The position numbers were made by a program, and so were the translations under genes. 40,401 nt of DNA from Candidatus Poribacteria bacterium (GTDB lineage Bacteria > Poribacteria > WGA-4E > WGA-3G). The stretch is taken from the NCBI GenBank assembly GCA_012270795.1, contig JAAXHO010000212.1, positions 3,951 to 44,351 of the forward strand, in the 5' to 3' direction. The notes under the pieces are model-generated. The model did no database searches and was not told where the DNA came from. It worked only from the letters and a program-made list of their open reading frames with translations. Numbering within the stretch: the stretch's first letter is position 1; each line of letters opens with the position of its first letter. Below are positions 4,178-35,632 of the stretch, one piece after another.

Positions 4178-4633
4178 ATGTTCCTGAAGCCTCTGATACA
4201 ATGGATACATGTGGGTTCTGTTGTCTTGATGATAGGGGGATTCTTCTTCTTCCGCGTTGTACTCATTCCAATTGCGAAACGGCAGACAGATGCGGATACG
4301 CTTATTTCATCTGCATTGAGACGTTTTAGTAGCATTGTTTGGTGTACACTCTTATCTGTGCTTATTTCGGGTTTGTACAACGTCGTCTCGTTCTTCAGAA
4401 CAGCTCGTAATCCTAACGTAGAATCCGTTATCTCCGATTATTCACTCTATATACTCGTTTTAGGTGTAAAATTCTTTCTCGTTTTTGTCATATACACACT
4501 TGCGATTATACTGACATTCCCATATCCTGTGTTTGAACCGGTCCAGAAAAAACCATCACCCTGGCTGAACGTTTTGATATTCTTTGCTTTGATTATAATT
4601 TTCCTGTCTGCTTTTTTACGTCGAATTGCTTAG
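4178..4633 (+). CDS. Four-helix integral membrane protein, CopD/DUF2269-like
   Basis: The 151-residue protein is almost entirely hydrophobic, with about four membrane helices. The opening segment WIHVGSVVLMIGGFFFFR resembles the first helix of CopD-like and related small membrane families, in which a histidine sits early in helix 1. Helices follow near residues 50-70, 90-115 and 130-147, with basic ends (FLRRIA). A specific function cannot be assigned. Its start lies 33 bases after the preceding small gene, so it could be the end of the same transcript. Confidence 0.65.
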   Translation: MFLKPLIQWIHVGSVVLMIGGFFFFRVVLIPIAKRQTDADTLISSALRRFSSIVWCTLLSVLISGLYNVVSFFRTARNPNVESVISDYSLYILVLGVKFFLVFVIYTLAIILTFPYPVFEPVQKKPSPWLNVLIFFALIIIFLSAFLRRIA

Positions 4634-6971: not shown

Positions 6972-7478
6972 CACGGAAAAGACCGCTGCCACGGATCGTC
7001 TTGCTTATTTATGGGTTATTCTTTGCAATAAATGTTCATGAGGGTGTCTTTTCCGTGCCTTCCGTGTAATCCGCGAATTCCGTGATTCCGCACACACGCC
7101 GTGTAATCCGCGATTCTGACAAAAAGGGTGACAAAAACTTTACACATCCGCATTAGCTACGGAGAGCCGGTAGGAGCGACCTCCCGGTCGCGACCGGGAG
7201 GTCGCTCCTACAGAAGATGGGGAAATTTGGGGTTGAAAACCCCTCCTACAAGAGTACATTTTGACAATTGAATGCCTCTGCACGGCATTCGGGTATGTAA
7301 AGTTTTTGGCATCCAGAATCGCGGATTTCCCGGAATGCGCGGAGGGCGCGGCGTGTGCGCGGAATCGCGGAATGCGCGGAATTCACGGAAGACGCGGAAA
7401 AGACATCCCCATGAACATTTATTGCAAAGAATAACCCATAAATAAGCAAGACGATCCGTGGCAGCGGTCTTTTCCGTG
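6972..7478. repeat. Roughly 85-bp inverted repeat pair with 335-bp spacer
   Basis: The left arm 6972-7057 begins CACGGAAAAGACCGCTGCC and reads through CTTGCTTATTTATGGG to TTTTCCGTG. The right arm 7393-7478 is its near-exact reverse complement (one or two differences by eye). The spacer contains the 42-bp palindrome. The whole could extrude as a very large cruciform or represent a non-autonomous mobile element. Confidence 0.85.
7170..7211. repeat. Perfect 42-bp palindrome (GTAGGAGCGACC family)
   Basis: GTAGGAGCGACCTCCCGGTC is followed by its exact reverse complement, with a CGCG-containing centre and no loop. The family recurs at 1-15 (half), 10061-10101, 35517-35557 and, degenerate, 35562-35596. 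In RNA it would make a very stable GC-rich hairpin. Confidence 0.95.
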
Positions 7479-7661: not shown

Positions 7662-8594
7662 ATGAAGCGAATAAAGATTCCCGGCGTTGACCAAGAGATT
7701 TCACAACTCATTCTGGGAACAATGATGTATTCACCTGCCCAATATGAACATAGCACTAAAATGCTTGATACGTTCTTTGAAGCAGGTGGAAATACACTGG
7801 ACACTGCACACATATATGGTGGAGGGAACAGCGAGAAGTTAATCGGTCTCTGGATGAAGGAACGTGGTAATCGTGAAGAGGTGTTTCTAATAGATAAAGG
7901 GGGGCATCCACAAGGGGGAATTCCTAACCGCGTGTCTCCAGAATACATAAAACTGGACCTTGATGAAAACTTAACACGACTTGATACCGATTACATTGAT
8001 CTCTATATGCTACATAGAGACGACCTGAACATGCCAGTAAACACAATAATAGATTACTTGAATGAAGAGATAGACTCAGGGCGAATCCGTGCCATTGCAG
8101 CTTCTAACTGGACACCTAAACGTATTGTTGAAGCCAATGCTTATGCAACAGAAAACAGACTCAACGGTTTTGTTGCATGTAGCAACAACATAAGTCTTGC
8201 AGTGCCGATGGAACCTATGTGGGGAGGATGCGTAAACGTTGACGAGGATGCACGACGGTGGCATATTGAAAGCCAATTTCCTCTCATGCCGTGGTCATCA
8301 CAGGCGCGCGGTTTTTTCAGCGGGGCATTCACACCTGACAAGCGAGATAATGGTGATATGGTTCGGGTCTATTACAATGACAACAACTTTGAAAGACTAT
8401 CACGTGCTAATAAATTAGGCGAAAAAAACGGGTTCTCTGCTATACAAGTGTCTCTGGCGTATTGTCTAAATCTTCCCTTTCCCATTTTCCCGATTGTTGG
8501 TCCTGCGAATTTAGATGAGATGAATTCTTCACTCGGTGCATTGAACCTCGATCTTTCAGACGATGAAATGGCATGGCTAAATCTTGAAACATAA
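7662..8594 (+). CDS. Aldo/keto reductase
   Basis: This 310-residue NAD(P)H-dependent oxidoreductase has the complete catalytic tetrad: D47 (NTLDTAHIYG), Y52, K79 (LIDKGG) and H118 (YMLHRDD). The C-terminal cofactor end (IVGPANLDEMNSSLGAL) matches the typical phosphate-binding segment. Length is standard. It lies alone behind a good promoter, with a purine-rich stretch (GAGTTGAGGA) upstream of the ATG. The substrate is not deducible; in sugar-degrading bacteria such enzymes often act on sugar-derived aldehydes or ketones. Confidence 0.92.
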   Translation: MKRIKIPGVDQEISQLILGTMMYSPAQYEHSTKMLDTFFEAGGNTLDTAHIYGGGNSEKLIGLWMKERGNREEVFLIDKGGHPQGGIPNRVSPEYIKLDLDENLTRLDTDYIDLYMLHRDDLNMPVNTIIDYLNEEIDSGRIRAIAASNWTPKRIVEANAYATENRLNGFVACSNNISLAVPMEPMWGGCVNVDEDARRWHIESQFPLMPWSSQARGFFSGAFTPDKRDNGDMVRVYYNDNNFERLSRANKLGEKNGFSAIQVSLAYCLNLPFPIFPIVGPANLDEMNSSLGALNLDLSDDEMAWLNLET

Positions 8595-8647: not shown

Positions 8648-9916
8648 ATGGGATTGGCTGAAATACAAACTAATCAAAGTGTACCGATTGCTACCGATGC
8701 GCCGCATCCTTACCTTCATACGATATTCGAGATCAGTGAAAAATATCTAAAGCGCGTCTTTGATGAACGACTTCTGAATGAATTTAAGACAGATTGCTTA
8801 AGTCATATTCGGGGTGATAGAGATTCAACCATAGAACAGTTCATAAAAGCATACTACGATTTTGTTAAGAAGGAATATCAAAAACAATATACCAATGCCG
8901 ATTCAGCATTAAATAATGACATTTTTTCTGCATCAAATAGACCAAAACTGTTGTGGGGTCACTGTTTGGATTTTTTGAAACGAATGGACAGCGAAAGCGT
9001 TCAGTTGATGATTACTTCGCCACCATATTACAATGCCAGAGATTATTCCCAATGGGAAACTCTGGATGACTATTTGGATGATATGTCCAATATTATCAAG
9101 GAATGTTATCGGGTACTGGACAATCATCGTCCTTTCGTTTTCAATGTGGGAGATATATTTGACAACGATCACAGACACACTAAATCCACTTGGGGAAAAC
9201 GTAGGATGCCATTGGGTGCATATTTCACTATGATTTTTGAAGAACACGGTTTTCAATTTGTGGACGATTTCATCTGGGACAAGGGGGAAGTTCAGACGCA
9301 GCGGCATAAAAATGGAAACAGACCCTATCCGTTATATCAATATCCCGTCAACTGTTATGAGCATATTTTTATTTTTTACAAACATCGGTTAGATGAAACA
9401 CTTTATCCTTGTCCAATATGTGGATGCCTGAAAATCAATGGGAATGCATACTCTGGCGTAGGTATCAAATCTTGGGAATGTAAGAATTTAGAGTGTTTCA
9501 AGCGATCGGCTGGCAATCGGGGCAAACGTTTTTCTGCACGTACGCAGTTGATGACAGGGTTGCAACGCACGCATAATCTTGTTGATGAAGATTTGTTACA
9601 TAAGTGGCGGCGTGATATTGTCAAATTAGCACCCGTAATCAAGATAAACAGCAAAGGGCAAAACACGCTTGGACATACAGCTCCCTTCCCACGCGAAATT
9701 CCCGAATACGCAGTCCGGGTGTTCAGTGGTATAGAAGAATCTGTCCTTGACCCTTTTGCAGGTTCATTCACGACTACAATAGAATCATTGAGGTTAGGAC
9801 GAAACAGCATCGGCATAGAACTGAATAGATCGTTATGTAGAGATGCCGTCCTGAATCGAATCCCAGACGATCTCTTTACTATGGATCCAAAAGAGGTGGA
9901 AAGTGAATGGATCTGA
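8648..9916 (+). CDS. Site-specific DNA methyltransferase, beta-class order (N4-cytosine/N6-adenine), apparently orphan
   Basis: The 422-residue protein carries the catalytic motif TSPPYYNARDY (T123-Y133) before the AdoMet-binding motif DPFAGS near residue 367, the order expected for beta-class amino-methyltransferases. The SPPY form is commonest in N4-cytosine enzymes. About 95 N-terminal residues of unknown fold precede it. A cysteine set (CPICGC about 20 residues ahead of WECKNLEC) looks like a zinc ribbon inserted in the target-recognition part. GGGAGGTACGACT lies upstream of the ATG. No restriction endonuclease gene is adjacent; only very short frames follow before a repeat. It could be a regulatory orphan or the survivor of a restriction-modification pair. 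Confidence 0.88.
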   Translation: MGLAEIQTNQSVPIATDAPHPYLHTIFEISEKYLKRVFDERLLNEFKTDCLSHIRGDRDSTIEQFIKAYYDFVKKEYQKQYTNADSALNNDIFSASNRPKLLWGHCLDFLKRMDSESVQLMITSPPYYNARDYSQWETLDDYLDDMSNIIKECYRVLDNHRPFVFNVGDIFDNDHRHTKSTWGKRRMPLGAYFTMIFEEHGFQFVDDFIWDKGEVQTQRHKNGNRPYPLYQYPVNCYEHIFIFYKHRLDETLYPCPICGCLKINGNAYSGVGIKSWECKNLECFKRSAGNRGKRFSARTQLMTGLQRTHNLVDEDLLHKWRRDIVKLAPVIKINSKGQNTLGHTAPFPREIPEYAVRVFSGIEESVLDPFAGSFTTTIESLRLGRNSIGIELNRSLCRDAVLNRIPDDLFTMDPKEVESEWI

Positions 9917-10023: not shown

Positions 10024-10138
10024 CTATGGTGAAATATGGAAATAATTATACACATTTTCTGTAGGAGCGACCTCTGGTCGCGACCGGGAGGTCGCTCCTA
10101 CCAGTGAAAGTATGTAATTAATTCCATAATCTACCATA
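10024..10138. repeat. MITE-like element: hairpin bounded by TATGGTGAAAT inverted ends
   Basis: The left end (10024-10053, CTATGGTGAAATATGGAAAT onward) and right end (10110-10138) are imperfect reverse complements. Between them lies a copy of the GTAGGAGCGACC hairpin (10061-10101). The end sequence recurs at 12269-12298 and 35604-35632. No transposase is encoded. The remaining gap 9917-10179 holds only tiny open frames. Confidence 0.7.
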
Positions 10139-10179
10139 AACTAAAAAATACACAATTCTAAAATAAAAAAGGAACGACA

Positions 10180-11289
10180 ATGCAAAACACATTTTTTAAC
10201 ATAAAACTTTTTATACTACTTACGATACTAACCTTTAGTACTTTGCATGCGACTTTTGCACAAGAGAGTTGAGGTGCGTGAAGCAATCCCGCAATCCCAC
10301 GCAGCGGAATGGGTGAAGTCAGTTTGACTTCAGACGGTAAGAAGTTCCAGGCATCTGTTAGTTTGATGAGATGGTACGACGCACAGGGTGGACACTTTGA
10401 AGATGAAGGTGTCTTCATTGACGAAAATGGGAACAGAACAATTGGTCATGTTCCAAATCACCGACATCATGTTACATTAAACGTATATAGGATTGATGTC
10501 GGGTTAAAATATCAACTCGGCACGCAATGGTCTTTAGAAGCAAATCTCCCGTTCGAATCTAAAGTCCAGGATGCAAATGTTGAGAAACTTGCAGGTGTTG
10601 ACTATGATGATAAACAGTGGGCAGCAATTGTAGAAAATGGACGTATCCATCATCGCGATGAAACCTATACGGGTTTGACAGATTCAGAGGTTTTTCTTGG
10701 ACATTATAGGCTTGGTGTTGTCACTGAAAATGATTTTTTGATGGGGCGTATCGGGATGTCAATTCCATTTGGTAAAACGGAGGAAGACCCTTGGAAACTC
10801 GGGGCTAAAGGAGAAGAACATTTACATCTCCAATTTGGTACCGGAACTTTCAATCCAATTGTTGACTTGTACTACAACTTTCCTTTATATAAAGGATTAG
10901 CGGCACATACCAGTTTCCGAACAAAACTGCCGTTCTATGAGAATAGCAAGACATATCGGGGTTCCAGGGAACTTACTTACACAGGTGGGTTGAATTTTCG
11001 TTTGAATAAGTGGTTTTCTTTTCAAGCAGGTTACCTTGGAATATATCAGACTTATGCTTATTGGGATGGGGTCATAGACAAGAATACGGGTTTGCTTTTT
11101 GGTATGGCATCTCTTGGAACATCTATATCAACTCCATTTAATGTTCCGTTATCCGTTTCGCTCATGCTGCCGTTACATCAAAAGACGCTATATGATGATA
11201 GTGAAACTTTGGCTGATACCAACTATGAGGAAAGCGATGCGTTTGAATTTGGACCGTTAGTCTCAATGACAGTCTTATATTCATTTTAG
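10180..11289 (+). CDS. Outer-membrane beta-barrel protein with two in-frame UGA codons: candidate UxxU selenoprotein
   Basis: The reading frame opens at ATG 10180 (Shine-Dalgarno AAAAAGGAACG) with a clear signal peptide ending HATFA, residue 27. It then meets UGA at 10270-10272 (codon 31) and 10279-10281 (codon 34) and continues open to a TAA at 11289. The join reads QES-U-GA-U-SNPAIPRSGMGEVS, so the two UGAs stand as a UxxU pair, the spacing of a CxxC redox motif, in the first residues of the mature protein. The rest is rich in alternating beta strands and ends in VLYSF, an aromatic C-terminus typical of outer-membrane barrels. Starting at the internal ATG 10309 would leave a barrel with no signal peptide. 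Other genes here use UGA as stop, so general recoding is unlikely. The alternative is two nonsense mutations nine bases apart in an otherwise intact frame, which is less plausible. The barrel's function is unknown. Confidence 0.8.
10314..10332 (+). promoter_or_regulatory. SECIS-like hairpin after the UxxU codons
   Basis: TGAAGTCA-GTT-TGACTTCA is a perfect 8-bp stem with a 3-nt loop beginning with G. Its loop begins 40 bases after the second UGA, slightly beyond the range usually quoted for bacterial SECIS elements. A second possible stem (TGCGTG 10275-10280 with CACGCA 10298-10303) spans the second UGA. Which one SelB would bind cannot be settled by eye. Confidence 0.4.
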
Positions 11290-35516: not shown

Positions 35517-35632
35517 GTAGGAGCGACCGCACAGTCGCGACCAAAGGTCGCTCCTACAGAAGAGACCGCACAGTCGTGACCAAAAGTCGCTCTTACAGAA
35601 GAGGTGTATAATTATTTCAAAAATTCACCATA
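35517..35632. repeat. Two hairpin copies plus short-repeat end
   Basis: 35517-35557 is a GTAGGAGCGACC...GGTCGCTCCTAC hairpin; 35562-35596 is a degenerate second one (GTGACCAAAAGTCGC). 35604-35632 is a copy of the GTGTATAATTATTTCA end repeat, which runs into the 3' end of the propeller gene below. The order is the same as in the element at 10024-10138, half of it. Confidence 0.8.

Follow-up and report, generated by a model that had tools for sequence, protein, structure and literature searches.

Within the 40,401-nt stretch of Candidatus Poribacteria DNA analyzed here (the window; contig JAAXHO010000212.1), positions 10180 to 11289 of the forward strand form a single coding frame, closed only by UGA at codons 31 (10270-10272) and 34 (10279-10281). 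Read through, the frame encodes a 369-residue protein, predicted to be an outer-membrane barrel with two selenocysteines (Sec), that contains the sequence U-G-A-U and ends in Phe, and its features described below all lie on the same strand. The ATG at 10180 has a plausible ribosome-binding site, AGGAA (10170-10174), as read directly from the sequence, and the stop codon is TAA (11287-11289). A hydrophobic leader ending ..ATFA|QES stands before the UGA pair; sequence and alignment mark it as a signal peptide of codons 1-27 (10180-10260, with a putative cleavage site), and the AlphaFold2 model places a helix over residues 2-23. After cleavage, the mature protein would begin QES-U-G-A-U-SNPAIPR, and the region 10345-11286 is predicted to fold as a 12-stranded β-barrel. 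Ordinary gene calling returns only ATG 10309 to 11289, a product without the signal peptide. An earlier note on this DNA had reported the frame with its two UGAs behind a signal peptide and had expected a conventional caller to find only the shorter gene, and both points held when the sequence was read again.

An aldo/keto reductase gene (7662-8594, forward strand) lies upstream and is separated from the barrel gene by a DNA methylase gene (N6_N4; 8648-9916). In 41 of 57 loci of the window's type (UGAU), no more than 600 nt separate the barrel gene from an aldo/keto reductase gene upstream, so the methylase gene here looks like an insertion. A REP-like palindrome (GTAGGAGCGACCTC..GAGGTCGCTCCTAC) occurs three times in the window (7170-7211, 10061-10101, and 35517-35557; 6 half-sites versus 0.14 expected), and two of the copies flank the reductase and methylase genes. 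Elsewhere in the window, 4178-4633 encodes a membrane protein with a subthreshold match to CopD (copper resistance; 25.6 bits, cut-off 32.1).

The barrel family was present in 67 of the 85 Poribacteria genomes, and nearly all of its full-length copies carry two TGAs or, in a second group, one. UGAU-type sequences read QESUGAUSNP or a close variant and those of the second group QESCPAUSNP, and the double-UGA site is found, nearly identical, across one large branch of Poribacteria (sponge symbionts). TGA stands at both codons in all 57 anchored UGAU-type sequences, among which the Gly32 and Ala33 codons between the UGAs use all four third bases. When pairwise differences among these 57 sequences were counted by codon position, third positions near the UGAs, before and after them, proved ~7-fold more variable (7304 differences, versus 855 and 1132 at first and second positions). 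Since homologues with both TGAs occur in most of the family-bearing genomes and the TGAs are invariant, we concluded that the UGA pair is not a product of chance.

The earlier note had proposed looking for Cys or Sec at codons 31 and 34 of homologues, and the relatives indeed carry UxxU or CxxU there. Cys replaces Sec31 in the CPAU group and in a single gene, in L064, that reads QDSCSAUSNP. In a tree built from the barrel region, the CPAU copies form one paralogous clade (support 1.0), and the CSAU gene is nested in a UGAU group; therefore, Sec31 has changed to Cys at least twice, independently. Sec34 is never exchanged: all homologues whose sequence extends over this codon have it, and no family member was seen with Cys at both codons. 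The in-frame UGAs are thus conserved, and the homologous positions hold either Sec or Cys, which is the pattern by which selenoproteins are recognized; on these sequence comparisons the barrel family is almost certainly a real selenoprotein family whose homologous UGAs recur across the Poribacteria branch. No homologue was found in 302 genomes from other phyla; the best 80 of the 116 loci from a search over 84,980 species all carry the title (Candidatus) Poribacteria. The window's genome also holds a second, distantly related barrel (L023; 26% identical over 145 residues), which lacks the N-terminal Cys/Sec pair. Among other copies, in L129 the barrel frame contains TGA a third time, at residue 60, where the relatives' consensus MRWFDAQ has Trp, and the second copies L068 (genome G046) and L071 (genome G028) look fragmentary, as if duplicates had been lost more than once.

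The window's genome, a draft of 298 contigs that is 95% complete, contains selB (353 bits, above the cut-off), an adjoining gene for tRNA-Sec (selC; 78.5 bits, UCA anticodon), and selD (371 bits), which itself has an in-frame UGA at codon 17 (..KCAGUASK..). The earlier note had named these three genes together with selA, and selA alone is missing from the draft (a match of only 19 bits to TIGR00474 and none to PF03841). Because selA is strong in nearly all relatives (~480 to 543 bits in most of the 85 Poribacteria genomes searched), its absence is probably a gap of the draft. The Sec machinery is complete in relatives. Judged from these comparisons, both UGAs of the barrel gene are almost certainly decoded as Sec.

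Two hairpin regions follow the UGAs. The distal hairpin, UGAAGUCA-GUU-UGACUUCA (10314-10332; loop 10322-10324), has an 8-bp stem in which 97% of cells are paired across 67 distinct sequences. Four of the eight pairs (alignment pairs 57-69, 59-67, 60-66, and 61-65) show compensatory changes, in different lineages, and RNAalifold recovered the hairpin unaided. None of 500 shuffles matched it in paired cells, in cells altered at both partners, or in covariation score, and when the register was shifted at most 49% of cells paired. For the number of pairs altered at both partners, 24 of the 500 shuffles reached the observed value; because shuffles ignore relatedness, the separate lineages of the changes weigh more. 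Its loop, A/G-G-U/G-N-U/C, fits the bacterial SECIS loop pattern, and the hairpin conforms to the bacterial SECIS rule of a 4- to 16-bp stem and a 3- to 9-nt loop with G and then mostly G or U at the first two loop positions (PMC13188914). In the window, the loop lies 40 nt after the second UGA and 49 nt after the first, outside the 16 to 37 nt that the spacing rule allows from UGA to apical loop, and a subset of bacterial SECIS elements is known to depart from the model (PMC13188914). The proximal region (10285-10311; AAUCCCGC..GCGGGAUU type), which is imperfect in the window, has two alternative, mutually exclusive registers with moderate, partial support for each. As the registers compete and neither is clean, we do not claim it as a SECIS element; if folded, it would shorten the distance from the UGAs to the distal loop.

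AlphaFold2, run on 49 family members, gave a 12-stranded barrel (mean pLDDT, 76), and Foldseek matched it to the amyloid secretion channel FapF (5o65, 5o67, and 5o68; best match, E = 5.6e-11) and to the COG4313 channel Pput2725 (PDB 4rl8), with E values from 5.6e-11 to 5.3e-9 and 12 to 15% identity. Export and a barrel fold are thus predicted for the window protein. The likeness to FapF goes with only 12 to 15% identity, however, and no Fap operon or amyloid subunit was seen in the family neighborhoods examined. Pput2725 shares the predicted 12-stranded barrel and an N-terminal segment before strand 1 (PMC4493636), but it shows no sequence relation to the family above cut-off, no Sec/Cys pair has been described for it, and its presumed role is the uptake of hydrophobic molecules. 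COG4313 channels likely correspond to PF13557, to which 5 of 24 members had weak matches (best E, 8.1e-4, below the Pfam cut-off) and the window protein none. No Pfam or NCBIfam model above cut-off covers the family (24 members were scanned with Pfam), nor does any PDB chain sequence, and the barrel protein has no thioredoxin-like domain.

In the AlphaFold2 model, the N-terminal segment 20-51, which carries the Sec pair, is of low confidence (pLDDT < 50 for residues 20-35 and 42-51). The first ~14 residues of Pput2725 fold into the lumen and almost close the channel (PMC4493636), and by analogy the UxxU pair is rather more likely to sit in such a lumen plug than elsewhere. The invariant residues of the family include H72, H94, H96, H157, H158, H214, and H216, and in strand 86-113 the odd positions are more hydrophobic than the even ones, which would turn H94 and H96 toward the interior.

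Gene neighborhoods gave a further indication of function. In 23 of 24 CPAU loci, a Cys-rich secreted protein is encoded within 600 nt upstream. In the complete genome of L207, the CPAU barrel gene is followed by genes for a YHS protein, two genes of outer-membrane factor size, a CusB-type adaptor with heavy-metal-binding (HMBD) domains, and CusA/CzcA (939 bits, cut-off 701), and an OEP gene stands at the corresponding place in L166. The CPAU paralogue therefore lies with CusA, CusB, and an outer-membrane factor, whereas no metal operon surrounds the window's UGAU copy. L063, a UGAU relative that is further removed, adjoins genes for a BlaI-type repressor, an M56 peptidase, and a YHS/thioredoxin protein. 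From these sequence contexts, metal appears to be the best-supported theme for the family, one that extends to the window's copy solely through homology. Small Cys-rich secreted proteins with CC pairs are encoded upstream of CPAU copies and of some distant copies (L171:6359-6802, L066:4400-4915, L070:3197-3667, and L064:3465-3899); those of L171, L066, and L070 had no Pfam match.

We propose that UGA 31 and UGA 34 would both be read as Sec, directed by SelB, tRNA-Sec, and the SECIS-type hairpin at 10314-10332, and that the signal peptide would be cleaved to leave the N terminus QES-U-G-A-U-SNP. The N-terminal stretch would then turn back inside the barrel and plug its lumen close to H72, H94, H96, H157, H158, H214, and H216, where the selenolate pair could bind a soft metal such as Cu(I), or toggle between diselenol and diselenide, and so gate or load the channel. 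Taken as a whole, an exported outer-membrane Sec barrel with its Sec pair in a lumen plug and soft-metal or diselenide gating is the reading that we favor, at somewhat better than even chances. For soft-metal binding as the main role of the pair, the chances suggested by the sequences fall a little short of even. The most specific form of the proposal, a channel in which a lumen-plug Sec-x-x-Sec and an invariant His ring gate a soft metal, encoded by UGAs nine bases apart that are served by one unusually distant, two-hairpin SECIS, is put forward tentatively.

The strongest rival keeps the same double-Sec barrel and gives the pair a redox function, catalytic or regulatory (diselenide/diselenol), such as (lipid hydro)peroxide reduction at the outer membrane or oxidant sensing. 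UxxU and CxxU have the spacing of thiol-redox motifs, redox activity is the presumed role of most selenoproteins (PMC13188914), and the UGAU copy usually lies near an aldo/keto reductase gene; beside the copy in L070 there are, in addition, a weak FMN-binding match below the Pfam cut-off and a CNVCH haem-like motif. However, with no thioredoxin-like domain, many invariant His residues but no recognized peroxidase site, and heavy-metal efflux as the clearest conserved operon, we consider a redox centre a serious possibility, though one that would have to be bet against, and we would place the metal and redox readings close to each other in probability. Thus, where the earlier note had seen a UxxU diselenide or redox motif on a barrel protein, the double-Sec barrel is supported, and for the role of the pair, metal is at least as well supported by context as the redox function that the note had deduced.

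It is improbable that the barrel is an electron conduit of the MtrB/PioB kind with a Sec pair engaged in maturation or electron transfer. That barrel type does include one listed selenoprotein, but the match of our family to PF11854 (MtrB/PioB) is weak (E = 0.034, in 1 of 24 members), and NF041027 gave no match. MtrB-type barrels have more strands than the 12 predicted here, and no multihaem cytochromes were seen in the neighborhoods examined.

The two readings that dispense with Sec are both very hard to sustain. UGA readthrough by a changed code or a suppressor tRNA, inserting an ordinary residue such as Trp or Cys, would by itself look identical, but UGA directly follows the terminal Phe as the stop in 16 of 80 barrel relatives and terminates 4 of 15 clear window genes, which rules out a changed code and makes the readthrough local, as expected for Sec; moreover, the relatives' Sec machinery is complete, the homologous residue is Cys and not Trp, and the SECIS-like hairpin is conserved. 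Genuine stops, in a pseudogene, an assembly error, or a gene for a shorter protein from ATG 10309, would agree with standard gene callers, but the same UGAs recur in dozens of species, purifying selection runs through them, Cys takes the place of the first in some relatives, and a start at 10309 loses the signal peptide. The concern about assembly errors raised in the earlier note was settled by five complete single-contig chromosomes (OX639992, OY282374, OX638316, OX639973, and OX638352) with identical UGAs, and these comparative data exclude a pseudogene as well.

Among the 119 prokaryotic selenoprotein families of a list from 2026, two are outer-membrane entries, the GSU2204-type MtrB/PioB barrel (NF041027) and the FCYXU TonB receptor (NF049945), and UxxU appears in that list only in a Prx-like protein, the NF041115 metal-binding protein, and FmdB (PMC13188914). 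The GSU2204-type protein is likewise an outer-membrane β-barrel with a predicted Sec, but only one, and no UxxU is listed for it (PMC13188914); the TonB receptor has CxxU with a single Sec, and our family does not match its model. Prx-like, NF041115, and FmdB proteins share the UxxU spacing of two Sec residues but come from other families, and the list describes none of them as a barrel of the outer membrane. Neither the present family nor any UxxU barrel is on the list (PMC13188914), and no paper in our limited literature collection treats selenoproteins and Poribacteria together. As far as Pfam, NCBIfam, and the 119-family list go, this is apparently an undescribed selenoprotein family. The novelty suspected in the earlier note therefore stands for the family and for its UxxU barrel, which has no listed precedent, but not for outer-membrane barrel selenoproteins in general, which have precedents (PMC13188914).

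Across a whole branch of sponge symbionts, then, ordinary annotation cuts a selenoprotein family down to a signal-less fragment. With two UGAs so close together and a hairpin so far behind them, it probes how far the bacterial SECIS model extends. The family places easily oxidized Sec twice at the outer membrane, at the extreme N terminus of a barrel, which raises questions about how reduced Sec is exported, how the barrel is assembled, and what advantage selenium offers over sulfur. As far as sequence can tell, the Sec pair probably has a part in metal or redox chemistry on the surface of the cell, and the series UxxU, CPxU, and CSxU within one phylum is a ready-made natural experiment.
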